Part shown: piece by piece, positions 10,510 through 43,746 of the stretch | Position numbering within the stretch: position 1 is the first letter of the stretch | Layout of the letters: the number at the start of each line of letters is the position of its first letter | Source of the DNA: Fibrobacter sp. | GTDB taxonomy: Bacteria > Fibrobacterota > Fibrobacteria > Fibrobacterales > Fibrobacteraceae | Length of the DNA: 64,000 nucleotides | Direction: 5' to 3' | Assembly: GCA_024399065.1 (NCBI GenBank) | Contig: JAKSIB010000014.1 | Span: 1 to 64,000, forward strand | Notes under the pieces: model-generated | The model's input: only the letters and a program-made list of their open reading frames with translations | Told to the model about the DNA's origin: nothing | The model's database searches: none | Position numbers and translations under genes: made by a program

Positions 10510-12363
10510 TTACAGCTCCTCAACGGCTTCAGTTCTAAGGTTTTCAACAATAAAGTCCTGACGGCTCTGGGTGTTCTTGCCCATGTAATATTCAAGCATT
10601 TTACCCAGGGAAGCGTCGGTAGGCATGGTCACTGTTTCCAGGTGCATGTTTTCGCCGATCAGAAGCTTAAAGTCTTCGGAGTCCATTTCGCCAAGACCTT
10701 TGAATCGTGTGATTTCCAGGTCCTTCTTGGTGATTTCCTTGGCGGCGCGGTCGCGTTCCTCTTCGTCGTAGCAGTAGAAGGTCTTGGACTTGTCCTTCTT
10801 ATGGCGGACGCGGAACAGGGGAGCCTGCAGAATGTACAGGTGCTTTTCTGCCACCAGTTCCGGGAAGAACTGCAAGAAGAAGGTCATGAGCAACAGGCGG
10901 ATGTGCATACCGTCCACGTCAGCATCGGTTGCGATAATCACCTTGTCGTAACGCAGGTCTTCCAGACCGTTTTCGATGTTCAAGGCTGCCTGCAGCAGGT
11001 TCCATTCTTCGTTTTCGTAAACAATCTTCTTGCTCAGGCCGAAACTGTTCAGCGGCTTACCGCGAAGGCTGAACACTGCCTGGGTCTTGGGGTTACGTGC
11101 CGTAGTGATGGTACCGGATGCAGAGTTACCTTCGGTAATGAAGATCATGGTTTCGTTCTTCAGCGGGTTCTTTGCATCGGTAAGGTGTACGGAACAGTCA
11201 CGAAGCTTCTTGTTGTTAAGATTTGCCTTCTTGGCGCGTTCGTTGGCCAGCTTCTTTACACCAGCCAGGTCCTTGCGGAGCTTTTCGTTCTGGTTGATGC
11301 GGTCCAGCATTGCCTTGGCAACGGCTTCGTTCTTGTGAAGGTAGTTGTCCAGTTCCTTGGCCACGTAGTCCACGATCCAGGAGCGAAGTGCGGGGCCGTT
11401 GGGTGCGGTAGTGGTGCTGCCCAGCTTGGTCTTGGTCTGGGATTCGAAAACCGGTTCCTGGATACGCACGGAAATGGCACCGATAATGCAGTTACGTACG
11501 TCGCTGGCGTCGAATTCCTTCTTGAAATGGTCGCGGATGCCCTTGACCACGCCTTCGCGGAAGGCTGCCTGATGAGTACCACCCTGGGTGGTGTGCTGGC
11601 CGTTCACGAAGCTAAAGTAATGTTCACCTTCCTGGTTGGAATGGGTGATGGCGAACTCGATATCCTTGCTCTTGCAGTGGATGACGTCGTAGCGGATGGT
11701 ATCGTCGGTACGGCTGTGCAAGAGGTCCAAAAGACCGTTGGGGCTTACGTAGGTCTTGTCGTTCATGATGAGGGACAAGCCTGTGTTCAGGTAAGCGTAG
11801 TTCCAGATTTTTTCTTCCATGTAGGCCGGAAGGAACCTGAAGTTCTTGAAAAGGTCGTTGTCGGGCACGAAGTAGATTTCGGTACCGTTCTTTTCGTTGG
11901 TAGCCTCGATCTTGTAGTCCTTGACTAGGATACCCTTGCTGAATTCGGCCTTTTTCACGCGACCGTCGCGAATACTGCGGACAACGAAAGTGGTGGAGAG
12001 GGCGTTTACGGCCTTGGTACCCACACCGTTCATACCCACGGACTTCTGGAAGGCTTCGGAATCGTATTTACCGCCGGTGTTCATCTTGCTTACGCAGTCG
12101 ATGACCTTTTCCAGGGGGATGCCACGGCCATAGTCGCGGACGCGGCAGGCGTGGTCTTCCATGGTGATTTCGATTTTTTTGCCGGCACCCATGGCGAATT
12201 CGTCGATGGAGTTGTCGATCACTTCCTTGGCGAGAACGTAGATACCGTCATCGGGGCTCTGGCCGTCGCCCAGCTTACCGATGTACATACCCGGACGCAT
12301 GCGGATATGTTCGTACCAATCCAATGTCTTAATATTACTTTCGTCGTATTTTACAGTAGCCAT
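10510..12363 (-). CDS. parE: DNA topoisomerase IV subunit B
   Basis: A 617-residue ATPase subunit of type IIA topoisomerase. The GHKL fold shows MRPGMYIG, EVIDNSIDEF, DYGRGIP and GMNGVGTKAVNAL. The transducer domain follows (QTKTKLGS), then the TOPRIM domain with FITEGNSASG, SLRGKPLNSFG and the DADVDGMHIR metal-binding motif, and the C-terminal RFKGLGEMD. Its length fits ParE/GyrB without the E. coli GyrB insertion. It is first in a two-gene operon with parC. The promoter candidate is at 12486-12493 on the same strand. Confidence 0.9.
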   Translation of the reverse strand: MATVKYDESNIKTLDWYEHIRMRPGMYIGKLGDGQSPDDGIYVLAKEVIDNSIDEFAMGAGKKIEITMEDHACRVRDYGRGIPLEKVIDCVSKMNTGGKYDSEAFQKSVGMNGVGTKAVNALSTTFVVRSIRDGRVKKAEFSKGILVKDYKIEATNEKNGTEIYFVPDNDLFKNFRFLPAYMEEKIWNYAYLNTGLSLIMNDKTYVSPNGLLDLLHSRTDDTIRYDVIHCKSKDIEFAITHSNQEGEHYFSFVNGQHTTQGGTHQAAFREGVVKGIRDHFKKEFDASDVRNCIIGAISVRIQEPVFESQTKTKLGSTTTAPNGPALRSWIVDYVAKELDNYLHKNEAVAKAMLDRINQNEKLRKDLAGVKKLANERAKKANLNNKKLRDCSVHLTDAKNPLKNETMIFITEGNSASGTITTARNPKTQAVFSLRGKPLNSFGLSKKIVYENEEWNLLQAALNIENGLEDLRYDKVIIATDADVDGMHIRLLLMTFFLQFFPELVAEKHLYILQAPLFRVRHKKDKSKTFYCYDEEERDRAAKEITKKDLEITRFKGLGEMDSEDFKLLIGENMHLETVTMPTDASLGKMLEYYMGKNTQSRQDFIVENLRTEAVEEL

Positions 12364-21765: not shown

Positions 21766-22677
21766 ATGATCAAGTCCTTAACTTCCGCTTTGAATAACGT
21801 TCTTCTTGGAAAGAACGATACTGTTGAACTTTTACTCATGGCACTTTTGGCCGATGGCCATGTGCTGATTGAAGATGTTCCTGGTACAGGTAAGACCACT
21901 TTGAGCAAGGCTTTGGCTGCTGCGGTGGGTGCCGACTTTGCCCGAATCCAGTTTACTCCGGATTTGCTCCCTGCTGATGTGACTGGCGGTGCCGTATATA
22001 ATGCCAAGACTGGCGAATTCAATATTAAGAAAGGTCCTGTTTTTACTCAGATCCTTTTGGCTGATGAAATCAACCGTGCGTCGCCCCGAACCCAGAGTTC
22101 TTTGCTGGAAGCTATGGAAGAACGCCAGGTTTCCTTGGAAGGTGAACGCCACAAGTTGCCGGAACTCTTTATGGTTCTTGCTACAGAAAACCCTGTGGAA
22201 TTCCACGGGGTGTTCCCGCTGCCGGAAGCTCAGATGGACCGTTTTATGGTGAGAATTTCTGTGGGGTACCCGTCGGAGGAAACGGAACTTGATATTCTGC
22301 GTTCTCATCGCGAAGGCAGGCCCATTGACAAGGTGGTGGCGGTGACGCGCCCCGAGGACATTCTGAAGGCTCGTGCCCAGGTGATGAAGGTTCATGTGGA
22401 CGAGTCCCTGGAGCGTTATGTGGTTTCCTTGGTGCAGGCGACAAGAAACGATGGCGGTGTCCGTTTGGCGGCAAGCCCTCGTGCTGGCCTAAACCTGATT
22501 CGTATGGCTCAGGCCTGCGCCTTTATGAATGGCCGTGACTTTGTGAATCCCGATGATATCCAGAGGGTATTCTTCCCGGTAATGGAACATCGCGTGTTCG
22601 CCAAGGACAGCGCCAATCCTGAAGCTAGCAAGAATATTTTGCAGAGTATACTGAAGAAGGTTGCTATTCCGAAATAG
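21766..22677 (+). CDS. MoxR-family AAA+ ATPase
   Basis: A 303-residue ATPase with Walker A DVPGTGKTT, Walker B LLADEINRASP, MEERQVS and the sensor region PRAGLNLI. MoxR ATPases usually act as chaperones with a neighbouring DUF58 protein, and here DUF58 and a transglutaminase follow in the order typical of that module. TATATTTA at 21753-21760 ends five bases before the ATG; AGGA lies too close to the ATG to be a normal ribosome site, so a leaderless start is possible. It lies 28 bp after the glycosyltransferase. Confidence 0.9.
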   Translation: MIKSLTSALNNVLLGKNDTVELLLMALLADGHVLIEDVPGTGKTTLSKALAAAVGADFARIQFTPDLLPADVTGGAVYNAKTGEFNIKKGPVFTQILLADEINRASPRTQSSLLEAMEERQVSLEGERHKLPELFMVLATENPVEFHGVFPLPEAQMDRFMVRISVGYPSEETELDILRSHREGRPIDKVVAVTRPEDILKARAQVMKVHVDESLERYVVSLVQATRNDGGVRLAASPRAGLNLIRMAQACAFMNGRDFVNPDDIQRVFFPVMEHRVFAKDSANPEASKNILQSILKKVAIPK

Positions 22678-22769
22678 TGAACAGTGAACAATGAAGAATG
22701 TTTGTTTGAAAATTTGTTGCTCACCGATCAAAAACTCATAACTCACCCCTCGAACCTGGAACCTCAAAT
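22677..22769. repeat. Heptanucleotide-phased repeats inside the moxR-DUF58 junction
   Basis: Two GTGAACA units and ATGAAGA run in 7-bp phase from the last base of the moxR stop (22677-22697). A second block of five units in 7-bp phase (22735-22769), consensus CTCRAAC with variants such as CTCATAA and CTGGAAC, runs into the DUF58 start codon. Confidence 0.75.
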
Positions 22770-26131: not shown

Positions 26132-27481
26132 ATGAAATATTTATGGAGTTCAATTGCTGTCGCCGCGGTACTTGTTGCTTGCGGTGATGAGCCTACGAAT
26201 AATGTGTCGAATGCGGAAGATGTAGAATCATCCTCGTCTATATCTAAGGTGGATTCTGTAGAATCTTCTTCATCGGTATCTAAGGCTGATTCTGCAGGTT
26301 CATCTTCTTCAATATCTAAGGTTGATTCTACGGCAAAGTCTTCGTCAAGTAAAGGAACGAAGTATGAAACTGTTGTTTCTTACGGCGAAATGACTGACCC
26401 GCGAGACTCAAAAACATATAAGACCATTACCTTGAAATATTTTGATGGCGAGGATTCTATAACCAGCGATACCTGGATGGCCGAAGACCTTGCGTACAAT
26501 GCAGAATATGCCGATCAAGTCATTGTTGAAAATGGAGTACATCTTTATGCCATGCCTGCGGCAATGGATTCCTTAAAATCGGGTTGCGGTTATTTGGACT
26601 TAGCCGATATTTGGTATTGTATACTTCCCAAAAATTTCCAAGGAATCTGCCCCGATGGTTGGCGAATGCCTTCCTCTAAAGAGGCTAGTCATTTCGCTTC
26701 TATATTGAAAGGTAATAGCGATGCCGAAGCTGCTTTTTACCATTCCTCTAGTGCAAGCGAATGCGAAGATAGTGATTATTTCTGGACAAGCACAGAATTG
26801 GGCTTTGGTCTTTTTTCTGGATCCGGTGTTCGCAAAGAATGTGTGAATTCGTTTGATTACCCTATTGAATCCTTTGCACCGGTTCGTTGTTTGAAGGGCG
26901 AGGGTGTTCATGTGGAACCGGTGATTCCCTGGCCTGAGAAATATAAAGGTAATTTTGGGACTTTGACTGATTCTCGCGATGATAAAACTTACAAGACCGT
27001 GAAAATTGGTGAACAGACCTGGATGGCCGAGAACTTGGACTACTATATGTCCGATTCAACCAGCATTTGCAACGATTTTGACGAGGATTGTTCCAGGTAT
27101 CACAGGTTCTATACTTGGACTGCAGCCATGGAAGCTTGCCCCCAGGGTTGGCATTTGCCGACAGAGGCTGAATTTACAACATTGAAGAACTTTGTATTGA
27201 AGGATTGGCCCGACTATAGAGTGCTGAGCTTGTTGGGTGAACAATATGGCTGGGAAACGGAAACCTATGATGCTTATGGATTTGGTGCCAAGTATGATTT
27301 TTCGCCTTTTGATAATCCTAGAGGCGAATTCACTTACAAAGGTTCTGCCGCGTATTGGTCTTCTTCTGAGGCTTCTGATAGCGCCAGTGCGAAAGCACTT
27401 TGGCTGCAACTTGATTCCCGTCCCGAAAGCGATAGTATGAACAAAAACTATTATGCTGGAGTGCGTTGCTTGAAGGATTAA
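26132..27481 (+). CDS. FISUMP-domain lipoprotein
   Basis: A 449-residue lipoprotein (lipobox VLVAC) with AGGAGG at 26122-26127 four bases before the ATG. Residues ~28-75 are a linker of SSSSISKVDS-like units. Two FISUMP domains follow: a divergent one (~82-268, YGEMTDPRDSKTYKTI, GICPDGWRMP, VRCLKGE) and a more canonical one (~280-449, FGTLTDSRDDKTYKTV, EQTWMAENLDYY, CPQGWHLPTEAEF, GVRCLKD). The function of FISUMP proteins is unknown. It starts 8 bp after the transglutaminase gene, so it may be read from the same transcript. Confidence 0.88.
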   Translation: MKYLWSSIAVAAVLVACGDEPTNNVSNAEDVESSSSISKVDSVESSSSVSKADSAGSSSSISKVDSTAKSSSSKGTKYETVVSYGEMTDPRDSKTYKTITLKYFDGEDSITSDTWMAEDLAYNAEYADQVIVENGVHLYAMPAAMDSLKSGCGYLDLADIWYCILPKNFQGICPDGWRMPSSKEASHFASILKGNSDAEAAFYHSSSASECEDSDYFWTSTELGFGLFSGSGVRKECVNSFDYPIESFAPVRCLKGEGVHVEPVIPWPEKYKGNFGTLTDSRDDKTYKTVKIGEQTWMAENLDYYMSDSTSICNDFDEDCSRYHRFYTWTAAMEACPQGWHLPTEAEFTTLKNFVLKDWPDYRVLSLLGEQYGWETETYDAYGFGAKYDFSPFDNPRGEFTYKGSAAYWSSSEASDSASAKALWLQLDSRPESDSMNKNYYAGVRCLKD

Positions 27482-27557: not shown

Positions 27558-27599
27558 AATTACAAACTATAAATCGTAATTCATAATTCATAATTGCGC
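27558..27599. repeat. A/T-rich heptanucleotide array between FISUMP gene and putP
   Basis: Six consecutive 7-bp units in phase, with ATTCATA twice in succession and variants AATTACA, AACTATA, AATCGTA and ATTGCGC. The array ends 7 bp before the putP stop codon. Confidence 0.7.
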
Positions 27600-32169: not shown

Positions 32170-32952
32170 TTACTTTGTAAACTCTTCTTTATTGTTGTAG
32201 TTGCAGGCGTTTCTGCGTTTCAACTCGTTGTTCAGCGGCACGTAGATGAGGCTGAAAAGAACATATCCGGAAAGCAATACCAGCCAATGGTTCCAACCCA
32301 GGCGGGTTTCGATAAAGTGCATTTCCAGGAACATGAAGGGACCTGCAATCAGGAACAGCGGAAGTTGACGGCATTGGTCGCCCAGGGAAAACCTACTTTC
32401 GTAGCTCACGATGGAATTCATCATGGGGAAGCTGGTGCAGAATCCGCCCATAAGCTGCTTGATGAACATGAGCCCGCTGACCACTCCTGCGATGGCGGGA
32501 GCCTTAATATATATAGGTAGGGGAGTCTTGTATCGTACGCCGGACTTGTACTTCTGCTTCTGGAACATGATAAGCCCGACGATGAAGTCGAATGCGCAAA
32601 CGCCGATGAAGAAAGCTTCGCTGCTAGGGATGCGGGGCATGAGGAAGGTACCCATGGCGACAAAGCAGACGAGTCCGATGACGATGGCGGGTACGATAGG
32701 AATCTTTGCCTTGTAGTGCAGCACACGGACAATGTTGGCGTACAGCATGCACATGAATCCGGAAATAGCGTTTGCTGCTCCGATGGGCAGTCCTACGGCG
32801 ATATAGGCGAATCCGAAGGGGATGGGGATGGTGGCCGTGACCGCCTTGAGCTGGGGATCCTTCAGGTAGGCGCTGAGGGTTCCCAGGGCGGTGACCATGA
32901 AGACCAGTAGCCAGTCGTAGAAGGAAAAATGGAAGTTTAGGGACTCAAGCAT
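32170..32952 (-). CDS. Multi-pass membrane protein of unknown function
   Basis: A 260-residue, strongly hydrophobic protein with about seven predicted membrane helices, for example WLLVFMVTALGTLSAYL, IPFGFAYIAVGLPIGAAN and IPIVPAIVIGLVCFVAMG. I do not recognise a transporter signature. The loop between helices ~5 and ~6 is polar (SFPMMNSIVSYESRFSLGDQ). The C-terminus is short and charged. It follows the histidine-phosphatase lipoprotein on the same strand with 48 bp between (this gene is upstream), so the two could be cotranscribed. Confidence 0.7.
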   Translation of the reverse strand: MLESLNFHFSFYDWLLVFMVTALGTLSAYLKDPQLKAVTATIPIPFGFAYIAVGLPIGAANAISGFMCMLYANIVRVLHYKAKIPIVPAIVIGLVCFVAMGTFLMPRIPSSEAFFIGVCAFDFIVGLIMFQKQKYKSGVRYKTPLPIYIKAPAIAGVVSGLMFIKQLMGGFCTSFPMMNSIVSYESRFSLGDQCRQLPLFLIAGPFMFLEMHFIETRLGWNHWLVLLSGYVLFSLIYVPLNNELKRRNACNYNNKEEFTK

Positions 32953-32988
32953 GGTGTTTTTTTTGAAATTCGGGCGTAAAAATAGCTA

Positions 32989-33068
32989 GTGGACAGAGAA
33001 AAGTGAATAGTTGAGGCCTTTTTAGTGCAATTTTTCTTTTAATTCGTAATTCGTAATTAATAATTAAG
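32989..33068. repeat. Two heptanucleotide blocks upstream of rpsO
   Basis: Block A (32989-33016) is four units in 7-bp phase of GTGRAYA type (GTGGACA, GTGAATA). Block B (33041-33068) is AATTCGT twice, then AATTAAT and AATTAAG. Block B runs into the presumed rpsO promoter. Confidence 0.7.
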
Positions 33069-33199
33069 TTATATTTCCACCAACGTCATTTCGCCTTGGT
33101 ATTCCCGTCCAGTTAATTCCACTGGGAGTGAAAGTAGAATACTCGGGTGCAAACGTGTAAAACAGTAAAACAAACAAACCAAAAGGAACAGGTAGTAAA
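33067..33199 (+). promoter_or_regulatory. rpsO promoter and structured leader
   Basis: TATATTTC (about 33069-33076) is a likely -10. The leader can fold with outer stem GTATTC (33099-33104)/GAATAC (33137-33142) enclosing CCAGT (33109-33113)/ACTGG (33121-33125). Many rpsO leaders bind S15 for autoregulation; whether this one does is inference. Confidence 0.4.
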
Positions 33200-33472
33200 A
33201 TGGCTACTATTACTAAAGAAAAGGCTGCAGAAATCACCGCTAAGTTTGGCGCAAACGAAAAGGACACCGGTAACGTCCGCGTTCAGATCGCTCTCTTGAC
33301 CGAAAAGATCAAGAACCTCACTGAACATGCCAAGCAGCACAAGAAGGACCACCACTCTCTGCGTGGTCTGACTGCAATGGTTGCAAAGCGCAAGAACCTC
33401 ATCCGCTACTACAGCGAAAAGGACATCATTGCAGCTCGTGCTCTCATCAAGGAACTTGGTCTCCGCGGTTAA
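33200..33472 (+). CDS. rpsO: 30S ribosomal protein S15
   Basis: A 90-residue protein with the S15 pattern: DTGNVRVQIALLTEKI, LTEHAKQHKKDHHSLRGL, the 16S-binding HHSLRGL segment, and RKNLIRYYSEKD. It binds the central domain of 16S rRNA early in 30S assembly. Length is normal. AGGAACAGGT precedes the ATG. It is followed after 26 bp by pnp, the classical rpsO-pnp arrangement. Leu codons are mostly CTC, as in other highly expressed genes here. Confidence 0.97.
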   Translation: MATITKEKAAEITAKFGANEKDTGNVRVQIALLTEKIKNLTEHAKQHKKDHHSLRGLTAMVAKRKNLIRYYSEKDIIAARALIKELGLRG

Positions 33473-33498
33473 TTCTCTCACTTTGGAGATTATAACTT

Positions 33499-35769
33499 AT
33501 GTCTATTGACGCATACCAAGCCAAGTACGGCAAGATGCTCGATCCGAAGGAAGAGTCCGTTACTCTTCCCGACGGCCGAGTACTCACGTTCGAAACTGGC
33601 CGACTGGCAAAGCAGGCTCGCGGTTCTGCTGTTGCTAAGATGGGTGATGCTTTCCTCCTTTCTACCGTTTGCTACGGTGAAGAAAAGGATGGCGACTTCT
33701 TCCCTCTGACTGTTGAATATCGCGAAAAGTCTTACGCTGCTGGTCGCCTCCCGGGCGGCTACAGCAAGCGCGAACCGGGCCGTCCGTCCGACGAAGAAAT
33801 CCTCTCCGCTCGTATCATCGACCGTCCGATCCGCCCGATGTTCCCGGAAAACTTCACTCGTGAAGTCCAGGTCATCGTTCAGGTTCTCTCCGCTGACAAG
33901 AAGTTCGCACCCGACGTTCTCGGCGTGTCCGCAGCTTCTCTGTCTATCGGCCTCTCCGAACTCCCGTTCGAACAGCAGGTTGCTGCAGTTCGCGTGGCTG
34001 TCGTTGATGGTCAGAACATTGTCATGCCTACTTACGACCAGCTCGCTGTGGCCGATCTTGACCTGGTGGTCGCCGGTACAGAAGACTCTGTCTGCATGGT
34101 CGAAGGTGGTGCTTACGAAGTTTCTGAAGACACCATGATCGGCGCAATCCTCGCTGGCCACGAAGTCATCAAGGAAATGTGCAAGGCTCAGCAGAAGCTC
34201 GTTGAACGTTGCGCTAAGCCGAAGATGGAACTGAAGCCCCAGCATGTGGGTGAAGAACACGACAAGCTCCTCGCTACCGTTAAGGAAGTTGTTTGGGAAG
34301 AACTCAATAAGGACGTTCATTCCAACATGGTGAAGACCGACTTCTATCCGGCAATGGCAGACCTCTGCAAGCGCATGCTTGAAGACGAACGCATTACCGC
34401 TATTACCGGTGCAGGTGACGAAGCCGACGCTAAGCTCGTTGCTGACGCTAAGGCAATCTTCAGCGATTACGAACGCACCGCAATGCGTGAAATGATCTTG
34501 AACGAACATGTTCGTCTTGATGGCCGTACCACCACCGAAGTTCGTCCTATCGAAATCGAAATGGGCGTCCTCCCGCGTGCTCACGGTTCCGCTATCTTCC
34601 AGCGTGGTGAAACCCAGGGTCTCGTTATCTGCACCCTCGGTACCAAGGCTGACGAACAGCGTTACGAAAGCTTGCAGGGCGAAGGCTCCAAGAGCTACAT
34701 GCTTCATTACAACTTCCCGCCGTACTCCGTCGGTGAATGCAAGAAGCTTGGCCTTTCTCGTCGCGAAATCGGCCACGGCCACTTGGCAGAACGCTCTCTC
34801 GCCGCAGTTCTTCCGCTCCCGGAAGACTTCCCGTACACCATCCGCGTTTGCTCTGAAATCGAAGAATCCAACGGTTCTTCTTCCATGGCTTCCGTTTGCG
34901 GTGGCTGCCTTTCCTTGATGGACGCTGGCGTTCCTATCAAGGCTCCGGTTGCTGGTATCGCAATGGGCCTCATCTCCGAAAAGGGTTCCGTGAAGGAAGG
35001 CGGCAAGATTGAAATCTTGTCCGACATTACCGGCACCGAAGACCACCTCGGCGATATGGACTTCAAGGTTACTGGTACCGCTGAAGGTATCACGGCCTTC
35101 CAGATGGATATTAAGATTCGCGGCATCACCCCGGAACTCATGCGTCAGGCTCTCGAACAGGCTAAGCAGGGTCGTCTCCACATCCTGGAAAAGATGACTA
35201 CTCTCGGCCTCCCGGCACCGCGTCCGCAGGTTTCCGAAAAGGCTCCCACCATGATCAAGATGAAGGTCCCGACCAACAAGATTCGTGACGTCATCGGTTC
35301 TGGTGGCTCTGTCATCAAGGGTATGCAGTCTCAGACTGGTTGCACCATCACCATCGACGACAACGGTAACGTTGATATCGCTGCTCCGACTGGTAAGGCT
35401 GCCGCTGTTTGCCGCCGCATGATCGAAGAACTTACTGCTGAACCGGAAGCCGGTCGCAAGTACAAGGGCAAGGTGAAGACGATCCAGCCGTTCGGCGCAT
35501 TCGTCGAAATCCTCCCGGGTCGCGATGGCCTCGTTCACATCTCCGAACTTGCCGACCACCGTGTCGATAAGGTCGAAGACGTTGTTCACGTCGGTGACGA
35601 AGTTGAAGTTCTCTGCCTCGGTGTAGACCCGAAGGGCAAGGTGAAGCTTTCCATGAAGGCTTTGCTCCCGACCAAGGCTGAAGAAGCTGCTCCTGCTGCA
35701 GAAGCCCCGGCTGCTGAAGCACCTGCCGCTGAAGCTCCGGCCGCTCCCGAAGCACCTGCTGAAGCTTAA
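33499..35769 (+). CDS. pnp: Polyribonucleotide nucleotidyltransferase (PNPase)
   Basis: A 756-residue phosphorolytic 3'-5' exoribonuclease, core of bacterial RNA decay. Two RNase PH-like domains (~12-230 and ~330-560) contain FFPLTVEYREKSYAAGRLPGGY, RIIDRPIRPMFP, VRLDGRTTTEVRPI and the catalytic block KEGGKIEILSDITGTEDHLGDMDFKV-type region. A KH domain (~575-635, KIRDVIGSGGSVIK) and an S1 domain (~640-710, VKTIQPFGAFVEILPGRDGLVHISEL) follow. The last ~40 residues are an Ala/Pro/Glu repeat tail (EAPAAEAPAAEAP-like) beyond the usual end. GGAGA lies 9 bp before the ATG. Confidence 0.97.
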   Translation: MSIDAYQAKYGKMLDPKEESVTLPDGRVLTFETGRLAKQARGSAVAKMGDAFLLSTVCYGEEKDGDFFPLTVEYREKSYAAGRLPGGYSKREPGRPSDEEILSARIIDRPIRPMFPENFTREVQVIVQVLSADKKFAPDVLGVSAASLSIGLSELPFEQQVAAVRVAVVDGQNIVMPTYDQLAVADLDLVVAGTEDSVCMVEGGAYEVSEDTMIGAILAGHEVIKEMCKAQQKLVERCAKPKMELKPQHVGEEHDKLLATVKEVVWEELNKDVHSNMVKTDFYPAMADLCKRMLEDERITAITGAGDEADAKLVADAKAIFSDYERTAMREMILNEHVRLDGRTTTEVRPIEIEMGVLPRAHGSAIFQRGETQGLVICTLGTKADEQRYESLQGEGSKSYMLHYNFPPYSVGECKKLGLSRREIGHGHLAERSLAAVLPLPEDFPYTIRVCSEIEESNGSSSMASVCGGCLSLMDAGVPIKAPVAGIAMGLISEKGSVKEGGKIEILSDITGTEDHLGDMDFKVTGTAEGITAFQMDIKIRGITPELMRQALEQAKQGRLHILEKMTTLGLPAPRPQVSEKAPTMIKMKVPTNKIRDVIGSGGSVIKGMQSQTGCTITIDDNGNVDIAAPTGKAAAVCRRMIEELTAEPEAGRKYKGKVKTIQPFGAFVEILPGRDGLVHISELADHRVDKVEDVVHVGDEVEVLCLGVDPKGKVKLSMKALLPTKAEEAAPAAEAPAAEAPAAEAPAAPEAPAEA

Positions 35770-35791
35770 TTCGCGGATTCCGCAGAATTGA

Positions 35792-35830
35792 AAGACGACC
35801 GTCCGGTTTAACCGGCGGCCGTTTTTTTTG
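35792..35830 (+). terminator. Terminator of rpsO-pnp
   Basis: ACGACCGTCCGGTT and AACCGGCGGCCGT form a long G/C-rich stem with a small loop, followed by eight T. Confidence 0.9.
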
Positions 35831-35915
35831 TTTTGGTAAAGTTTACAAAAAGCAAGCTTTTTGTTATATATAAGTCCACGGTTGTAGGAAAGTTGTTCTG
35901 AATGGAGTATGAACG

Positions 35916-37619
35916 ATGATCTTGGGATATTTGTTTGCGATGTGCATCTTGGCTGCGGTCAACGTAGCCCTGTTGTCTCACGCGAACTCCAACTATAATC
36001 AGCGTGGTCCCTACGCCGCCATTTTCTTTGCAGCCTTCTTCTCCTGTGTGGGCTACTTGTTCCTGGGGCTTTCCACCAATATTGACGAAGCCAACATTGC
36101 CAACAAGATTTGCTACCTGGGCGCATCGTTCCTGCCCATGTTCACTTTCCAGGCGATTCTTTTGGTGTGTGATATTAAGGCACCCGATCGGCTGAACGGA
36201 TTCCTTGGAGTATTGTCCTTTGTGGTGTTCGGCCTGGCTGCAACAACAGGCTACAGCGACATTTACTACACCTCTATGAAGTGGGTGGAACTTTATGGTG
36301 TTGGAAACTATGAGGCGACCTTCGGGCCGGGTCACTTGTTGTTCAACTTCATGCTGGTGTTTTACCTTGTTGCGAATGTCAGCCTTCTGACCTACTCCTT
36401 CATCAAGAAGAAAAACGTTTCCTTCAAGAACCTGATTGCCTTGACCTTGGTAGAAATTGCAAGTATCGTGTCCTTCCTGGTGGCACGAATCATCGGCACC
36501 GATACCTTGGTGATGCCTGCGGTCTATGTGTTTGACCAACTGGCCTTGTTGTACATTTGCTTCCGTGTTCGTTATTACGATATTAACCAGAGTGCCATGA
36601 ATGCCTTGGAAGAAGGCAATACCGATGGCTTTATTTCCGTGTTCTTTGACCATACTTTCCTTGGTTGCAACAAGATTGCGTACAAATTCTTTGAACCTCT
36701 TAAGGAAAGTCGCGTGGACAAGCCCCTGGCGGGAGATTCTGAAATCGTCAAGTTCCTGAAGAGCTGGGTGGATGAATGCCAAAGTGGCAATGTTGAACCT
36801 GTCAAGGAATTCCAGTTTGGAGTCCGTCATTACAAGTTTTCCGTGAAAGTCCTGAGGGTAACCCAGAGAAGGGCGGTTTATCTCTTCAAGGCTGAAGACG
36901 ACTCGGATGTTCACAATTACGTGCAGATGCTGGGCTCCAGCAACTTGCGCCTCAAGAGCAAAATCAAGAATAGCGCCCATCAGATTAACGCCATTCAGGA
37001 ACAGATGATCGTGGGCATGGCTAACATGGTTGAAAACCGCGATAGCAATACCGGTGGCCATATCAAGCGTACAAGCCAGGTGGTTGCCATTCTGGTTAAT
37101 GAACTTCGCAAGGAAGGCTTTGCCGGCTGTGACGAAGATTTCTACACGGCCCTGGTCAAGAGCGCTCCTATGCATGACCTCGGCAAGATTGCCGTGGATG
37201 ACGCCATTTTGCGTAAGCCTGGCAGGTTCACTCCCGAAGAATACGAGGTGATGAAAACTCATCCGGCGAAGGGAGCCGCCATTGTGGAAAACCTCCTGGT
37301 GTCCCTGGAATCTCCGGAGTTCGTGCAGATTGCAAAGAACGTGGCCTTGTCCCATCATGAACGTTTTGATGGCAAGGGCTATCCCAATGGCCTGAGCGGA
37401 ACTGATATTCCTGTGGAAGCGCGAATCATGGCTGTGGCTGATGTTTATGACGCCTTGGTCAGTAAGCGCTGCTACAAGGAAAAATTCTCCTTTGAAACGG
37501 CCTACGGAATCATTATCGACGGTATGGGGACTCAGTTCGATCCCAGCCTGAGAACCTGCTTTGAAAATTCCCGCCAACAGCTGGAAGATTACTACAGCAG
37601 CCTTGTGGACGCGGAATAG
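35916..37619 (+). CDS. Membrane HD-GYP domain protein (putative cyclic-di-GMP phosphodiesterase)
   Basis: A 567-residue protein. Residues ~1-220 hold seven hydrophobic helices resembling the 7TM sensor of some histidine kinases. Residues ~230-340 are a PAS-like linker and coiled coil. The C-terminal HD-GYP domain (~355-555) has VENRDSNTGGHIKRT, the HD motif HDLGKIAVDD, HPAKGA, SHHERFDGKGYPNGLSG and MAVADVYDAL, so all metal ligands and the GYP loop are present. HD-GYP enzymes degrade c-di-GMP to GMP; activity is predicted from intact motifs. The promoter region is around TTATATATAAG (about 35863). It is monocistronic, with a terminator after it. Confidence 0.9.
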   Translation: MILGYLFAMCILAAVNVALLSHANSNYNQRGPYAAIFFAAFFSCVGYLFLGLSTNIDEANIANKICYLGASFLPMFTFQAILLVCDIKAPDRLNGFLGVLSFVVFGLAATTGYSDIYYTSMKWVELYGVGNYEATFGPGHLLFNFMLVFYLVANVSLLTYSFIKKKNVSFKNLIALTLVEIASIVSFLVARIIGTDTLVMPAVYVFDQLALLYICFRVRYYDINQSAMNALEEGNTDGFISVFFDHTFLGCNKIAYKFFEPLKESRVDKPLAGDSEIVKFLKSWVDECQSGNVEPVKEFQFGVRHYKFSVKVLRVTQRRAVYLFKAEDDSDVHNYVQMLGSSNLRLKSKIKNSAHQINAIQEQMIVGMANMVENRDSNTGGHIKRTSQVVAILVNELRKEGFAGCDEDFYTALVKSAPMHDLGKIAVDDAILRKPGRFTPEEYEVMKTHPAKGAAIVENLLVSLESPEFVQIAKNVALSHHERFDGKGYPNGLSGTDIPVEARIMAVADVYDALVSKRCYKEKFSFETAYGIIIDGMGTQFDPSLRTCFENSRQQLEDYYSSLVDAE

Positions 37620-37648
37620 TTGGATCCGGGAAACGACTTTGGATAGGA

Positions 37649-37675
37649 AGGGCCTGCGACCGCAGGCTCTTTTGC
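37649..37675 (+). terminator. Terminator after the HD-GYP gene
   Basis: AGGGCCTGCG and CGCAGGCTCT pair around AC, followed by TTTTG. Confidence 0.75.
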
Positions 37676-37688
37676 TATTTTTGACCGC

Positions 37689-38411
37689 ATGGATGAACGC
37701 TTGAGTCGCATGGAATTGCTGATCGGGGCAAAGGCCCTGGAACGCCTGGCAGGCCTTCGTGTGGCCGTCTTTGGTATTGGCGGGGTAGGCAGTGTTTGCG
37801 CTGAATCCCTGGTGCGCTCCGGCGTTAAGAACATTACCTTGGTCGACAGCGACTGTGTTGCGGAAAGTAACATCAATCGTCAGCTGCCGGCTTTCGTTTC
37901 TACCGTAGGGTACCCTAAGGTCTTTGTCATGGCAGAACGCCTGGGCGACATCGCGCCCGACGCTACCATCACTCCGGTGCAGTCCCTCTATTCCATGGGG
38001 AACAAGGAGGGCTTTGACTTCAAGAGTTTTGACGTGGTGGTGGATGCCATTGATAGTCTTGCCCATAAGATCGACTTGCTGGCTACCGCTAGCGAAGCTG
38101 GCTGCAAGGTGTTCTGCAGTCTGGGTGCCGCAGGCAAGCTGGACCCCACCAAGGTTCGTTCCGCGAGCATCTGGAACACTACGGGCTGCCCTCTTGGTAA
38201 ACTTGTTCGTAATGGTCTTCGCAAGCGTGGCTTTGCCGGCGACTTTATGGCGGTGTACAGCGAAGAAAAATCGGTGGCCTTTGCGGTGGATCCCGAAACG
38301 GCGGAATCCCATGGCGACAGTACCAGGGCCTCCATTCTTGGCAGTGCCATGCCTGTGACTGGCGCCTTTGGCCTTGCCCTGAGCAGCCTCGTCATCCGTT
38401 CTGTTCTTTAA
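37689..38411 (+). CDS. tcdA: tRNA threonylcarbamoyladenosine dehydratase (TcdA/CsdL)
   Basis: A 240-residue E1-like (ThiF/MoeB superfamily) enzyme that cyclises t6A37 to ct6A37 in tRNA using ATP. The Rossmann ATP site is VFGIGGVGS with the following LVDSDCVAESNINRQLPA (Arg contacting the phosphate). VVDAIDSLAHK matches TcdA, and the C-terminal LGSAMPVTGAFGLALSS block is typical. It lacks the C-terminal Rhodanese or ThiS partner domains. TATTTTTG at 37676-37683 fits the local -10 form and lies 5 bp before ATG with no Shine-Dalgarno, so a leaderless message is likely. It is followed after 43 bp by ispG. Confidence 0.92.
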   Translation: MDERLSRMELLIGAKALERLAGLRVAVFGIGGVGSVCAESLVRSGVKNITLVDSDCVAESNINRQLPAFVSTVGYPKVFVMAERLGDIAPDATITPVQSLYSMGNKEGFDFKSFDVVVDAIDSLAHKIDLLATASEAGCKVFCSLGAAGKLDPTKVRSASIWNTTGCPLGKLVRNGLRKRGFAGDFMAVYSEEKSVAFAVDPETAESHGDSTRASILGSAMPVTGAFGLALSSLVIRSVL

Positions 38412-38454
38412 AAGCCGTTTGCCGTGGCTCTCGACTTTTTCTAATTTTTAGACC

Positions 38455-40206
38455 ATGACAAAGTTTTCTGAATTCCCGTATGTTGCCGACCGCTTCAACG
38501 CAGTCCGCAGGGAAACTGTACAGGTTCGCGTTGGCGATGCCTTGATCGGGGGCGGTGCTCCTATTCTAGTTCAATCTATGACCACCACCAAGCCCAAGGA
38601 CGTCGAAAAGACCGTCCAGGAAACCTTGGATTTGGCAAAGGCTGGTTGCGGCCTCGTCCGTATTACCACTCCGACCTATGCCGACGCTGCTGGTCTTGAA
38701 GAAGTCATGAAGCGTATTCGCGCTGCAGGTTGCAAGGTGCCGGTTTCCGCCGACATCCACTTCCAGCCGAAGGCCGCTTTCGAAGCTCTTAAGTGGGTTG
38801 AAAAAGTTCGTATCAATCCGGGTAACTTCGTAGATACCGGCATCCTCACTCTGGAAAACCAGACTGACGCCATGTTCGAAGAAGGTAAGGAAAAGGTTGC
38901 CGAACAGTTCACCCCGTTCGTTCAGGAAGCTAAGCGCCTTGGCCGCGCCATCCGTATCGGCGTGAACCACGGTTCTCTTTCTGCCCGTATGATTTACCGC
39001 TATGGCGACACCGTGGAAGGCATGGTGGAAAGTGCCATCGAATACTTGGCTGTTTGCGAAGCTGAACATTTTGACCAGGTTGTCCTCAGCCTCAAGTCCA
39101 GCAATCCTCGTGTGGCAATCGCCGCCTACCGTATGCTGGCTGCCCGCATTAAGCAGGAAGGCTTCAAGCCTTATCCGTTCCACGTTGGCGTTACCGAAGC
39201 TGGCGCTGGTGCCGATGGCCGTATGAAGTCTGCTGCTGGTATCGGTGCTCTCCTCCTGGATGGCCTTGCCGATACAATCCGCGTTTCTCTGACCGAAGAT
39301 CCTGTGGCCGAAGTCCCTGTGGCTCACGACCTGATCAAGGCCTGTGCATTGCCTGCTGAAAAGGGTGTAGCTCCTGTCAGCTATGCGGTTCCTGTTTTTG
39401 AAAAGGATCCGTACCACTACGAACGTCGCGAAACTACACCGGTTGTCTTGAACGGTGTTGAAATCGGCGGAACTCGTCCGGTGATGGTTGGCGTCAAGTC
39501 TGACGCGGCAAGCCTCACCGGTGAACGTCGTTCTCCGGAATTCGCTCTTGCTAGCCTGGATGAAAAGCCGCTGGTGACCTTCAAGGACGAAATGGATATT
39601 GCAGGCTTTGCTGCAAATCCCGCTTCCGTTCCGGCCGGCTCCATCTTCTGCTACACTGGCAAGGAAATGGTGATGGGCGTCCGCGCCATGGCTTCTGCTC
39701 TTGCAGCCGCCGGCCGCAAGGACCCGATCCTTCTCTATGCAAATATTTCTGATTCCGACAACGATATGCTCCGCGTATCCGCTGACATCGGAAGCCTCGT
39801 TACCGATGGTCTCGGTGACGCTGTCGTCATCGAAGGTTACAAGAGCGCCAAGGACTCTGTGCTCCTCGCTTTCGATATTCTGCAGGCTGCCTACTGCCGT
39901 CGCAGTAAGACCAACTTTATCAGCTGCCCCAGCTGCGGCCGTACCCTCTACAACATCCAGGAAGTCATGGGCAAGATCAAGGCCCGCTTCGGTCACCTGT
40001 CCGATATTTCCATCGGCATTATGGGCTGCATCGTGAACGGCCCTGGTGAAATGGCTGACGCAGACTTCGGTTACGTTGGTGGTGGTCCGGGTCGTATTAC
40101 CTTGTTCGAAGGCAAGACTGCTGTGAAGAAGAATATTCCGGAAGCAGACGCCATCGAAGAATTGGTGGCCCTCATCAAGGAACGTGGCCGTTGGGTAGAA
40201 CCGTAG
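38455..40206 (+). CDS. ispG: 4-hydroxy-3-methylbut-2-enyl-diphosphate synthase (long form)
   Basis: A 583-residue [4Fe-4S] enzyme of the methylerythritol phosphate pathway, converting MEcPP to HMBPP. The N-terminal TIM barrel (~1-290) has MTTTKPKDVEKTV, VPVSADIHF and KVRINPGNFVD. A central insert (~300-460) makes this the long form seen in plants, Chlamydiae and Bacteroidetes. The C-terminal cluster domain has Cys ligands in SCPSCGRTLYNIQEV and IGIMGCIVNGPGEMAD. TTGCCG (38419-38424), 17 bp, TAATTT (38442-38447) is a good promoter whose start would coincide with the ATG at 38455. The heptamer array begins right after the stop. Confidence 0.95.
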   Translation: MTKFSEFPYVADRFNAVRRETVQVRVGDALIGGGAPILVQSMTTTKPKDVEKTVQETLDLAKAGCGLVRITTPTYADAAGLEEVMKRIRAAGCKVPVSADIHFQPKAAFEALKWVEKVRINPGNFVDTGILTLENQTDAMFEEGKEKVAEQFTPFVQEAKRLGRAIRIGVNHGSLSARMIYRYGDTVEGMVESAIEYLAVCEAEHFDQVVLSLKSSNPRVAIAAYRMLAARIKQEGFKPYPFHVGVTEAGAGADGRMKSAAGIGALLLDGLADTIRVSLTEDPVAEVPVAHDLIKACALPAEKGVAPVSYAVPVFEKDPYHYERRETTPVVLNGVEIGGTRPVMVGVKSDAASLTGERRSPEFALASLDEKPLVTFKDEMDIAGFAANPASVPAGSIFCYTGKEMVMGVRAMASALAAAGRKDPILLYANISDSDNDMLRVSADIGSLVTDGLGDAVVIEGYKSAKDSVLLAFDILQAAYCRRSKTNFISCPSCGRTLYNIQEVMGKIKARFGHLSDISIGIMGCIVNGPGEMADADFGYVGGGPGRITLFEGKTAVKKNIPEADAIEELVALIKERGRWVEP

Positions 40207-40276
40207 GAGGCACGAGGTTTGAGGTGCGAGGCTCGATAAAATTGGAGCCTGAAGCCTAGAACCTGGAGCCTAAAAC
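40207..40276. repeat. Ten in-phase heptanucleotide units between ispG and serA
   Basis: Starting with the first base after the ispG stop, ten 7-bp units run without a phase break. The first four have form GAGGNNN; after two A/T-rich units the last four have form CTRRARC (CTGAAGC, CTAGAAC, CTGGAGC, CTAAAAC). The two halves are roughly inverse complements of each other. Confidence 0.85.
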
Positions 40277-40318
40277 AAAAGTTTTAAAAACAAAAAACAA
40301 AACAAAGGACTAAAAATC

Positions 40319-41485
40319 ATGGCAACTATTAAGACTATGAACAACATCTCCAAGAAGGGCCTTAGCCTCTTTGGAGCATACTATCAGGTTTCTGATACCG
40401 TCGAAAATCCGGATGCAATCCTCGTGCGCTCCGCTCAGGTTGATACCGACAATTTCGATGGCCTCCTTGCTGTCGCTCGTGCAGGTGCTGGTGTTAACAA
40501 CATCACCATCGACAAGGCTTCCGCTAAGGGTGTTTGCGTGTTCAACACTCCGGGTGCAAACGCAAACGCTGTTGCAGAACTGGTGATGACCGTTCTCGGT
40601 ATGGCTGTTCGTAACGTTGCTCAGGCTGCTAACTGGGTAAAGAACCTCGACCTCAATGACCCGGATATGGCTAAGACCGTTGAAAGCGGTAAGAAGAAGT
40701 TTGCTGGTTCTGAACTTGCTGGCAAGACTCTCGGTGTTATCGGCCTCGGCAAGATCGGCGTTCTCGTTGCTAACTATGCTCGTTGGAAGAACATGCGCGT
40801 TATCGCATACGAACCGTATCCCAACGCACTCAACATGCACGAACTTTCCAACAAGGTTGAAATTGCTGATCTCGACACCGTGATTGCAAATTCTGACTTC
40901 CTCACCGTTCACGTTCCGTTCATCAAGGGCGTTACCGAAAACCTCCTCAACCGCAAGAACCTCGCAAACTTCAAGGGTACTCATATCTTGAACTTTGCTC
41001 GTAACGGCCTCGTGGAAATGGATCCGGTTTACGACATGCTCGCTAACGGCACCCTCCAGGGCTACCTCAGCGACTTCCCGGATGCAAAGCAGATCCAGAA
41101 CGACAAGATCATGTGCTTCCCGCACCTCGGCGCTTCCACTGAAGAAGCTGAAGAAAACTGCGCAGTCATGGCTGTTGAAGAATTGAAGGACTACCTGGAA
41201 TACGGTTGCGTTCGTAATTCCGTGAACTTCCCGGCCCTCATGGACAAACCCCACATGGGCATCAAGAGCCGCGTTGTCGTGATTAACGAAGACGTTCCCA
41301 ACATGATTGCTGAAATCACCAAGGTGATCGGCGCTGCTGGCATTAACATCGCTTCCTTCTCCAACAAGAGCAACGGCAAAATCGGTTACAACCTGATCGA
41401 CTCCGAAGCAACCATCGGTGACGATATCATCGACGTTCTTTCCAAGTTGGAAAAGGTCATCAAGGTCCGCGTAATTCACTTCTAA
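40319..41485 (+). CDS. serA: D-3-phosphoglycerate dehydrogenase
   Basis: A 388-residue NAD-dependent dehydrogenase catalysing the first step of serine synthesis. The NAD site is GVIGLGKIGVLVANY; the catalytic residues are the Arg in LNFARNGLVE, a Glu in the following segment and the His in CFPHLGASTEEAEENCA. The C-terminal ~75 residues form an ACT domain (NEDVPNMIAEITKVIGAAGINIASF), suggesting feedback control by serine. AAAGGA precedes the ATG. Codon choice is strongly biased to CTC/CTT, consistent with high expression. Heptamer arrays flank the gene on both sides. Confidence 0.93.
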   Translation: MATIKTMNNISKKGLSLFGAYYQVSDTVENPDAILVRSAQVDTDNFDGLLAVARAGAGVNNITIDKASAKGVCVFNTPGANANAVAELVMTVLGMAVRNVAQAANWVKNLDLNDPDMAKTVESGKKKFAGSELAGKTLGVIGLGKIGVLVANYARWKNMRVIAYEPYPNALNMHELSNKVEIADLDTVIANSDFLTVHVPFIKGVTENLLNRKNLANFKGTHILNFARNGLVEMDPVYDMLANGTLQGYLSDFPDAKQIQNDKIMCFPHLGASTEEAEENCAVMAVEELKDYLEYGCVRNSVNFPALMDKPHMGIKSRVVVINEDVPNMIAEITKVIGAAGINIASFSNKSNGKIGYNLIDSEATIGDDIIDVLSKLEKVIKVRVIHF

Positions 41486-41517: not shown

Positions 41518-41552
41518 AATCCGACGAGTTCAACTCGCCGGATTTTTTTTTG
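41518..41552. terminator. Terminator between serA and the acyl-CoA synthetase
   Basis: AATCCGACGAGTT and AACTCGCCGGATT form a 13-bp stem with one mismatch and a minimal loop, followed by nine T. Confidence 0.9.
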
Positions 41553-41563
41553 CCTTACGAAAT

Positions 41564-41674
41564 CTCGTACTTAATACCTCGTGCCTCGCCCCTGGAGCCT
41601 CGAACCTCGTACTTCGTGCTTCGTAATTCGTAACTGCGCGCCGCGACTCGTTCCTCGTGCCTCGAACCTCGCGC
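41564..41674. repeat. Long degenerate heptanucleotide array ending at the fadD-type stop codon
   Basis: About fifteen 7-bp units with consensus CTCGNNC and a TTCGTAA sub-block (twice in succession). The phase is kept for twelve units, slips by one base near 41653, and continues for three more. The array ends exactly where the stop codon of the minus-strand gene (41675-41677) begins. Confidence 0.88.
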
Positions 41675-43450
41675 CTACTTGTACATTTCTTCGATTTCTT
41701 CGGCGTAGCGTTCTTCTGCAGCCTTGCGACGAATCTTGAGGGTGGGAGTGAGCAAGCCTGATTCAACGGTGAGGTTGTCGCCAATGAGAGTCCACTTGCG
41801 GATCTGTTCCCAATGGTTCAGCTTCTTGTTGATGCGGGTGATGTGACGCTGCAAGGCTTCGTTGATGCGGGTGGATTCCATTGCCTTGTTGATGTCAAAA
41901 TCGTACTTGTCGCGCTGCAGGAAGCGGCGTGCGTTCACCGGGTTCAAGAAAATGAGCACGGAAGCGAACTTGCGGTCGTTTGCAATCACCAGAGCCTGTT
42001 CCACCAGCGGATGGCGGCTGATTTCAAGTTCGATGGGATTGGGGCTCACGTACTTGCCTGTGCTGGTCTTCAGCAATTCCTTAATGCGGCCGGTAAGGTA
42101 CAAGTAACCGTCTTCGTCGAAACGGCCCTGGTCGCCTGTTCTGAAGAAACCATCTTCTGTGAAAATTTCCTTGTTCAGTTCGGGCATGTTGTGGTAGCCC
42201 TTGAACACGCTGTCTCCCTTCACCAGGACTTCGCTGTTTTCGCCGATCTTCACTTCAAGATGGGAAAGGGGTGTGCCTACGCTTCCCGGGCGGACTTCGC
42301 CGTTCTTGGTGACGCTGACCACGGGGGAGCATTCGGTGAGGCCGTAGCCTTCCAGCACGTTGACGCCCACGTTCAAGAGAAAACGGCAGATGGACTTGTT
42401 CAATGCGCCGCCGCCAGAAACGATAATGCGGTAGCGGCCGCCGATAGCGTCGCGCATCTTGCTGTAGACCAGCTTGTCGTAAATAATCTTGCCCAGGCTG
42501 AAACCCTTCTTGGTGGGGTCTGCAATCTTGGCGAACTTGATGGCGCGATTCAAAAGCCAGCGCTTCGGGCCGTGTAGCTTGTCTGCTGCGCCGGTCATGC
42601 TTTCGTACACGCGTTCCAAAATGCGGGGCACCACCATCATCACGGTGGGACGAACCTCTGCCATCAACTTGGAAGTGTTCTTCGGAGTGTCGCCGAAATA
42701 GACCTTGGTTCCGTTGATGATGTAGAAGTAAATGGTCATGCGCTCCAGAACGTGGGCTACCGGCAAGATGACGAGGGCCACGTCGGTTTTGCGGTCGAGA
42801 TGGATGTACTCCCGCTTGATGACCTGGATCTGGCTCAGCATGTTTCTGTGGGTCAGTTCCACACCCTTGGGACGGCCGGTAGAACCGCTGGTGTAGATGA
42901 TGCTGAATGGCATGTCGGAATGGATTTTTTCAACCTGGCGGACCAGCCAAAGGGTGGACTGCTCGTCCTTGGAAAGTTCTTCGCCTTCCTTCAGAAGGGC
43001 GTTCCAATAAACGCCATTTTCCGGAAGCTCGGAGGTGGGGTCGATGCAGATGACAGCCTTGAATCTGCCCAGACATTCCTGAAGGGGCTTATCCAGTTCC
43101 TTTACGTTGTTCAAAAGGAGAATCTGGACGTCTGAATCGTCGCACTGAAAATTGAAATTCTCCGAGGAGATGTTGGGGAACAGGGGAACGACTTTCGCGT
43201 GGTTGATTTGGGAGGCGATGTCGGTCATGACCCATTCGGGGCAGCTGTTGGCTACAATGCCGATGCTCTGGCCCGGATTGATGCCGTGCTTCTTAAAGGC
43301 CAATGCCAAGAAACGGGTGTGATCGCGGAGATCCTGCCTGGAAAAATGCACCCACTGTTCGTTTTTGCGGTGGTACCATCCGGCGAAATCCTCTCGTTCG
43401 CAGTTGGTGAAGAAGAGGTGGACGAGGGAAGGAGTCTGTAGCGGTTCCAT
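41675..43450 (-). CDS. Long-chain acyl-CoA synthetase (AMP-forming ligase)
   Basis: A 591-residue adenylate-forming enzyme that activates fatty acids with ATP and coenzyme A. The P-loop-like A3 motif is IIYTSGSTGRPKGVELTH, A5 is GYGLTECSPVVS, A7 FFRTGDQGRFDEDGYLYLTGRIKE (split around Asp and Arg), and A10 is present in the C-terminal domain region KLLKTSTGKYVSPNPIE as the family equivalent. It fits the FAA1/FadD15 branch of membrane-associated ligases. The ATG lies at 43448-43450. Its upstream region is shared with the divergent pectate lyase. Confidence 0.88.
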   Translation of the reverse strand: MEPLQTPSLVHLFFTNCEREDFAGWYHRKNEQWVHFSRQDLRDHTRFLALAFKKHGINPGQSIGIVANSCPEWVMTDIASQINHAKVVPLFPNISSENFNFQCDDSDVQILLLNNVKELDKPLQECLGRFKAVICIDPTSELPENGVYWNALLKEGEELSKDEQSTLWLVRQVEKIHSDMPFSIIYTSGSTGRPKGVELTHRNMLSQIQVIKREYIHLDRKTDVALVILPVAHVLERMTIYFYIINGTKVYFGDTPKNTSKLMAEVRPTVMMVVPRILERVYESMTGAADKLHGPKRWLLNRAIKFAKIADPTKKGFSLGKIIYDKLVYSKMRDAIGGRYRIIVSGGGALNKSICRFLLNVGVNVLEGYGLTECSPVVSVTKNGEVRPGSVGTPLSHLEVKIGENSEVLVKGDSVFKGYHNMPELNKEIFTEDGFFRTGDQGRFDEDGYLYLTGRIKELLKTSTGKYVSPNPIELEISRHPLVEQALVIANDRKFASVLIFLNPVNARRFLQRDKYDFDINKAMESTRINEALQRHITRINKKLNHWEQIRKWTLIGDNLTVESGLLTPTLKIRRKAAEERYAEEIEEMYK

Positions 43451-43614
43451 TAAAATCTCCGGGAGTTCGGGCTATAAACTTGTTTTGGTACAAGATACAT
43501 TAAAAATGGGCAAAAAAGGGGATTTTTCGGCAGTGTGTGTTATTTAACACGTTTTTGTACAAAATAACTAGGGTCGAGAAAAGGTCGTTTTTGAATGAAA
43601 TTGCATATTTAACG

Positions 43615-43746
43615 AAAATTTTGAGAACTTTTTAAAAATTTTGAGAACATTTTGTTTTGTAAATTTGTGGAATTGTTTAAAAATAAAGAAAATTTCTATT
43701 GACTTTTGATAAAAATTGCTTTATATTTGAGAAAGAAAATGAGAAC
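43615..43746 (+). promoter_or_regulatory. Direct repeats upstream of the pectate lyase promoter
   Basis: AAAATTTTGAGAAC occurs at 43615-43628 and 43635-43648, 20 bp apart (two helical turns), and a shorter relative AAAATGAGAAC lies at 43736-43746 just past the -10. These sit in the 363-bp spacer shared with the acyl-CoA synthetase gene, which also has a TTGTACAA palindrome near 43555-43562. Confidence 0.55.
43699..43729 (+). promoter_or_regulatory. Promoter of the pectate lyase gene
   Basis: TTGACT (43699-43704), a 17-bp spacer and TATATTTG (43722-43729), followed by an ~80-nt leader. It satisfies both the sigma-70 consensus and the Bacteroidetes-type TAnnTTTG. Confidence 0.65.

Follow-up and report, generated by a model that had tools for sequence, protein, structure and literature searches.

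The array beside the fadD-type gene

The window is the whole stretch of 64,000 nucleotides analysed here, from a Fibrobacter sp. genome (G000) that is available as a 118-contig draft. The gene names ispG, serA, fadD and topB are our own reading of the proteins. The window holds the following features:

38455 to 40206, plus strand: ispG-type gene, beside the spacer that is swapped between species
40204 to 40272, plus strand: second heptamer element, an inverted-pair hairpin reading TAG-GAGGCAC-GAGGTTT-GAGGTGC-GAGGCTCGA...GGAGCCTGAAGCCTAGAACCTGGAGCCTA, which starts with the ispG stop codon
40319 to 41485, plus strand: serA-type gene (D-3-phosphoglycerate dehydrogenase family)
41520 to 41551, plus strand: intrinsic-terminator-like hairpin with a T run, 3' of serA
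41564 to 41674, no strand assigned: degenerate 7-bp-phased array of about 16 steps, with the pyrimidine-rich strand on plus and the purine-rich strand (GAG-N4) on minus
41675 to 41677, minus strand: stop codon TAG that closes the fadD-type gene, within the first heptamer TAGGCGC
41675 to 43450, minus strand: fadD-type gene (long-chain acyl-CoA synthetase family), whose 3' end bears the array
22673 to 22700, no strand assigned: weaker lag-7 array (AGTGAACAGTGAACAATGAAGAATG) with no counterpart in the sister species G025
27558 to 27595, no strand assigned: lag-7 array of the ATTCATA type
33040 to 33067, no strand assigned: lag-7 array of the TAATTCG type, equal in length in G025

The array at 41564–41674 consists of 16 heptamer steps. 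A first-pass annotation had described about fifteen heptamers in a 7-bp register with CTCG or TTCG fixed; the register holds, but [CT]TCG occurs in only about 12 of the 16 units and is absent from TTAATAC, CTGGAGC, CTGCGCG, and CCGCGA. The 1-bp slip placed near 41653 is also real, but it lies at about 41634–41647, where a double step measures 13 bp instead of 14 bp. Lag-7 identity of the array was 0.644, far above the 0.276 ± 0.045 of dinucleotide shuffles, none of which (0/5000) reached the observed value. The higher multiples followed with identities of 0.557, 0.489, and 0.422 at lags 14, 21, and 28, respectively, and the remaining lags gave 0.17–0.32. This is the strongest lag-7 tract of the window.

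The annotation had also stated that the array ends exactly at the fadD-type stop codon, which is correct, and the stop codon itself (CTA on the plus strand, 41675–41677) belongs to the register and opens the first heptamer. Outward from this stop, the purine-rich minus strand runs TAGGCGC GAGGTTC GAGGCAC GAGGAAC. An 84-aa ORF crosses the array on the minus strand; a coding array was considered and rejected, and we take the ORF to result incidentally from heptamers that lack stop codons. The array showed no fold above background (MFE z 0.3–1.1). The terminator-like hairpin behind serA is retained in G009 and G011 beside other heptamers.

Three other repeats were observed in the window. Several inverted repeats, GGTTACTAAA...TTTAGTAACC, lie at 1827–2135 in DNA that is absent from G025, and they resemble a repeated operator or another palindrome family. 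A 36-bp coding tandem repeat at 26221–26348 differs from G025 by two units (72 bp). Two 20-bp copies (AAAATTTTGAGAACATTTTA) stand at 43614–43654, upstream of a gene that we read as pectate-lyase-like.

Abundance and placement of heptamer arrays

Further copies are numerous, both in the same genome and in other Fibrobacter species. Of the two outcomes named in the annotation as refuting the array, a lag-7 signal at the level of shuffled DNA and a lack of copies beyond the window, neither was observed. Over 464 kb of G000, scanned at lags 2–30 with one threshold, intergenic tracts numbered 23 at lag 7, 10 at lag 14, and 4 at lag 21, with 0–3 at nearly all other lags. Coding tracts, with crude ORF calls, tracked multiples of three besides 16 tracts at lag 7. 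The CTCG-type pattern TCGNNNYTCGNNNYTCGNNNYTCG gave 51 matches across the genome, compared with 2 for the reversed control, and it was matched in nearly every other Fibrobacter species examined. Intergenic array density in G000 was about 56 per Mb, against one array in 263 kb of other bacteria; about 0.54 Mb of the 3.8 Mb was directly catalogued, and the density may be somewhat high because part of this sample was picked for holding pattern matches. From this density, roughly 200 arrays are estimated for the genome.

An assembly artefact or chance periodicity would be conceivable in a 118-contig draft, but this explanation is already refuted and keeps practically no probability: the same array stands in the independent genome of the sister species, and arrays were found in many genomes in scans controlled by the reversed pattern.

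The arrays of G000 do not share one heptamer. CTCGAAC/CTCGAGC/CTCGTAC, CTCGTCT (B-type), TTCATAA, TAATTCG, TAGTGGT, CTTTATC, TTGTTCA, and others were found, and GAGGTTC and TAGGAAG were seen as well. TAGTGRT arrays are abundant in some Fibrobacter species and missing from many. A four-unit TAATTCG pattern was matched in G036 only, so this type is mostly degenerate. Sister Fibrobacterota gave few CTCG-pattern matches or none, except G052 and G053; 40 kb of G052 contained no lag-7 arrays. Long perfect heptamer arrays with the units TCGCTTC and TCGGTCT were observed in G053, another Fibrobacterota genome (contigs C33, C49, and C59; L051).

The arrays keep a strict orientation towards genes. With gene ends taken from simple ORF calls and starts therefore approximate, the purine-rich strand runs outward from the nearest gene end in 59 of 68 arrays (31/36 at stop codons and 28/32 at gene starts). 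Array density is 0.72 per kb in divergent gaps, 1.62 in convergent gaps, and 1.36 in tandem gaps. Arrays abut a facing stop codon in 26% of cases, versus 11% under random placement, and a TAG stop often serves as the first unit.

Such geometry could reflect functional arrays, in which a protein reads (T/G)AG or a similar motif every 7 nt of RNA or DNA, or in which the hairpins described below are selected as 3'-end terminators or mRNA stabilisers. The strand rule, the depletion between divergent genes, the abutment to stop codons, and the stability of the hairpins favour this explanation. However, palindrome geometry alone also yields the strand rule, the hairpins examined lack a U-run, unit sequence can be wholly different between sister species, and about one quarter of the species have no element between ispG and serA. 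We regard functional arrays as very improbable. TRAP-like (G/U)AG RNA binding and integron attC sites were considered and dropped for want of support.

Unit turnover, hairpins, and replacement of spacers

The arrays gain and lose entire 7-bp units, and therefore keep their phase while point mutations alter the units; the annotation had observed this retention of phase despite sequence drift. The genomes represent one per species and many are MAGs, so array comparisons are between species. In relatives with good flanks, and after flank filtering, gaps of at least 5 nt within arrays measured 7 nt (17 cases), 14 nt (3), 21 nt (1), and 10 nt (1), so that 21 of 22 are multiples of 7. The array at 27558 differs between G000 and G025 by exactly one unit (42 bp and 35 bp, respectively), and at ispG-serA one unit per arm separates G018 and G019 from G031. 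The variation in unit number that had been proposed as a check is thus present between species. The unit changes probably arise by replication slippage or strand misalignment, assisted by hairpins, and they agree with the slippage proposal of Mrazek et al. 2007 for heptamers, as quoted in PMC4679880.

The simplest account would be plain heptanucleotide microsatellites (the same proposal), with independent 7-nt slippage at each site and no mobility. It fits the whole-unit gaps, the unchanged length of the window array in G025, and the finding that, among long repeats, heptamers form the most frequent class in many bacteria (PMC4679880). It does not fit the recurrence of the same heptamer types at dozens of sites, the presence of unrelated heptamers at one site within near-identical flanks, a core common to arms of different heptamers, or B-type arrays of about four units in frame in topB of several species. 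The ispG-serA and topB data set out below suggest instead a movement of array types from one locus or genome to another, and we consider microsatellites alone unlikely.

Many arrays form the two arms of a palindromic insert, in which a purine-rich arm is followed by a short loop or core hairpin and a pyrimidine-rich arm. These inserts follow a stop codon immediately or precede a start. The core GGCNGCNNNGCNGCGATTATTC occurred 29 times in the genus, against 0 in controls, and is flanked by arms of many different heptamers. Among 37 elements selected by their core, own arms had a median complementarity score of 13, compared with 7 for the arms of other elements. Two-armed ispG-serA spacers folded with MFE z of −2.6 to −6.8 in 10 of 11 cases, the exception being G010 (−1.5); for the whole spacer around the hairpin at 40204–40272 the value was −6.8.

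Single arms are common in G000. The excess of inverted partners reaching the cut-off in this genome is small (13% versus 8%), and many arrays, including the window array, are therefore not hairpins. In the window array only the pyrimidine arm is present, on the fadD side; the place expected for the opposite, purine arm is occupied by the terminator-like hairpin of serA.

Outside Fibrobacter, the listed matches to the core pattern, by eye mostly coding, contained no heptamer elements except L226. This contig, binned as Bacteroidales from horse faeces, carries the Fibrobacter core with a heptamer arm at 6712–6780, by misbinning or transfer. Rfam gave no match above threshold; STnc240 scored 26 bits against a gathering score of 55.

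Comparison of orthologous gene boundaries showed that whole inserts are swapped from species to species, regardless of how similar the genes on either side are. The ispG-serA boundary lies 1.3 kb from the window array. In 31 species it holds element-free short spacers (31–56 nt), at least eight heptamer types, or other palindromes. Flank identity and spacer identity were uncorrelated there (rho 0.066 over 465 species pairs, which are not independent, as some species are closely related). In the pairs G000/G025 and G018/G008 the flanks are 99.1% identical and the spacers unrelated, and in G030/G006 the flanks are 87% and the spacers 97.6% identical. In most species beyond the closest clade, the serA leader AAGTTTTAAC...AAAGGA is retained while the spacer changes jointly with the stop codon. 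Other dispersed palindromes (GTCATCCTGAGC...GGATCT; CCGGGTCAAGCCCGG) were seen at this boundary in G023, G012, G026, G027, and G033 (L140, L143, L144, L153, and L145).

Other sites behave alike. G025, with about 88–93% nucleotide identity to G000 in the compared contigs, bears other heptamer types where G000 has CTCG types, between genes that are 87–100% identical. At serA-fadD, other heptamers stand beside the same stop codon in G009, G011, G019, G021, and G007. Window positions 32189–41485 are largely 97–99% identical to G025, between blocks of about 85–88%, and the ispG-serA spacer in this segment differs; the identity suggests recent gene exchange.

Similar inserts also occur in frame in topB. 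B-type arrays stand in frame in its linker in G000, G013, and G015; G009, G024, and G036 have other palindromes there, and in G018 (L312) a palindrome is nested inside a heptamer array. The linker (L047/L300, G000 contig C9 at about 11384–11415; L304, L305, L308, L310, and L312) is a hot spot of in-frame palindromic or heptamer inserts.

Alternatively, a transposase may move these inserts, which would then be genuine miniature mobile elements (MITE, REP, or RPE-like palindromes), their heptamer arms acting as terminal inverted repeats. In support, palindromes are bounded by TAG...CTA and are interchangeable with other palindromes at ispG-serA and topB, one insert is nested in the topB array of G018, and an 85-bp hairpin present in G025 is missing from G000 with a clean TA-to-TA junction. 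Against this, arm sequence is not fixed and leaves nothing constant for a transposase to recognise, and single arms are common. MITE-like terminal inverted repeats are found in the inverted-pair elements, not in single arrays. No consistent target duplication could be established, and the ispG-serA junctions were ambiguous in this respect. Of 37 genomes, 11 have a RAYT-type Y1 transposase (Y1_Tnp), and G025 is not among them despite its many arrays, so a RAYT/IS200 link was rejected. Transposase-moved elements are a tentative option to which we give some weight, while still thinking them unlikely.

The reading we prefer, and hold to be reasonably probable, is that the non-coding heptamer arrays, estimated at about 200 in G000, are shaped by slippage and used as the arms of palindromic spacer inserts that can be exchanged. 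With the hairpin assisting, slippage or misaligned strands during replication would add or remove 7-bp units; point mutations alter single units, and whole-unit steps preserve the phase. The palindromic insert, next to a stop or a start, may be tolerated because it lies just outside the reading frame or adds an in-frame linker. Spacers may spread by short-tract recombination or a putative mobilising activity, and any putative role at transcript 3' ends would be secondary. A broader proposal is a genus-wide modular spacer class in which the 7-bp phase, the purine-out geometry, and sometimes the core hairpin are constant and the heptamers free, and in which a dedicated activity, recognising structure or phase instead of sequence, would pass whole spacers between species; we find this distinctly doubtful.

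The inverted-pair arms, the in-register TAG, the multiplicity of heptamer sequences, and the interchangeable inserts at gene boundaries had all been missed in the first-pass annotation. Fibrobacter lends itself to a clean test of the reason for the prevalence of 7-nt repeats between the genes of unrelated bacteria: some species share 99% identity in the flanking genes and yet have heptamer spacers of unrelated sequence, some orthologous sites are empty, and matched arms differ by units. In this cellulose-degrading genus, intergenic spacers turn over by replacement, which bears on how promoters and terminators are predicted, strains typed, and MAGs assembled.

Comparison with known repeat systems

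STRR heptamers are reportedly a feature of heterocystous cyanobacteria (Mazel 1990; Vioque 1997). The likeness to STRR proposed at first stands for dispersed, degenerate, species-variable intergenic heptamers, but not for a single CTCG family. The strict 7-bp phase, degenerate tandem units, many dispersed and mainly intergenic copies, and unit-number variation between species are shared with STRR, and the heptamer class TTRGTCA occurs in Fibrobacter and Nostoc genomes alike. As a positive control, heterocystous cyanobacteria gave dense lag-7 arrays and up to hundreds of TTRGTCA-class matches, with few reversed-control matches in most of these genomes. The differences are the phylum, the main heptamers of Fibrobacter (CTCGNNC, CTCGTCT, and TAGTGGT), and the purine-outward rule, which was seen in Fibrobacter and not in a small cyanobacterial sample. 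The evidence supports an array that works like STRR, but we do not file it there because its host is Fibrobacter, outside the heterocystous and filamentous cyanobacteria. In the literature searched, we found no paper on such repeats in Fibrobacter, and the main text of the F. succinogenes S85 genome paper does not mention heptamer repeats.

Rickettsia palindromic elements (RPE) are palindromic inserts of conserved sequence that occur between genes and in frame within genes. The Fibrobacter inserts share both locations, with B-type arrays and other palindromes in the topB linker of G000, G013, G015, and others. Their arms are 7-phased and variable, unlike the conserved RPE sequence, and the likeness is one of architecture.

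REP/BIME elements with RAYT (Nunvar 2010, PMC2817692; GTAG/CGTC REPs, PMC3733652) resemble the inserts as extragenic palindromes after stop codons, with TAG at one end of many copies. The Fibrobacter elements differ by having no RAYT link, arms of tandem heptamers, and a variable base in front of TAG.

Among published repeats, the nearest in kind are the heptamers found between genes in Xanthomonas, Nostoc, and Beggiatoaceae. Rehm et al. 2015 (PMC4692102) described GGGAATC and GGGGA(C/T)T heptamer repeats in Xanthomonas and Nostoc with the same strand rule and the same overlap with stop codons, and the strand and position bias at stops and starts in Fibrobacter (59/68 outward; 26% versus 11%) is alike. 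G-quadruplex capacity was found in 0 of 76 Fibrobacter arrays and in 5 of 36 cyanobacterial arrays, and a G-quadruplex reading was dropped on the Fibrobacter count. Besides lacking G4, a Fibrobacter genome differs from Xanthomonas and Nostoc in containing many heptamers unrelated to one another, hairpins built of inverted pairs around a conserved core, exchanged spacers, and in-frame copies in topB. The TAACTGA direct repeats of Beggiatoaceae, Cyanobacteria, and Bacteroidetes (MacGregor 2015, PMC4679880) are one exact heptamer, whereas Fibrobacter has many degenerate ones; both are intergenic heptamer direct repeats of scattered phylogeny, partly near start codons.
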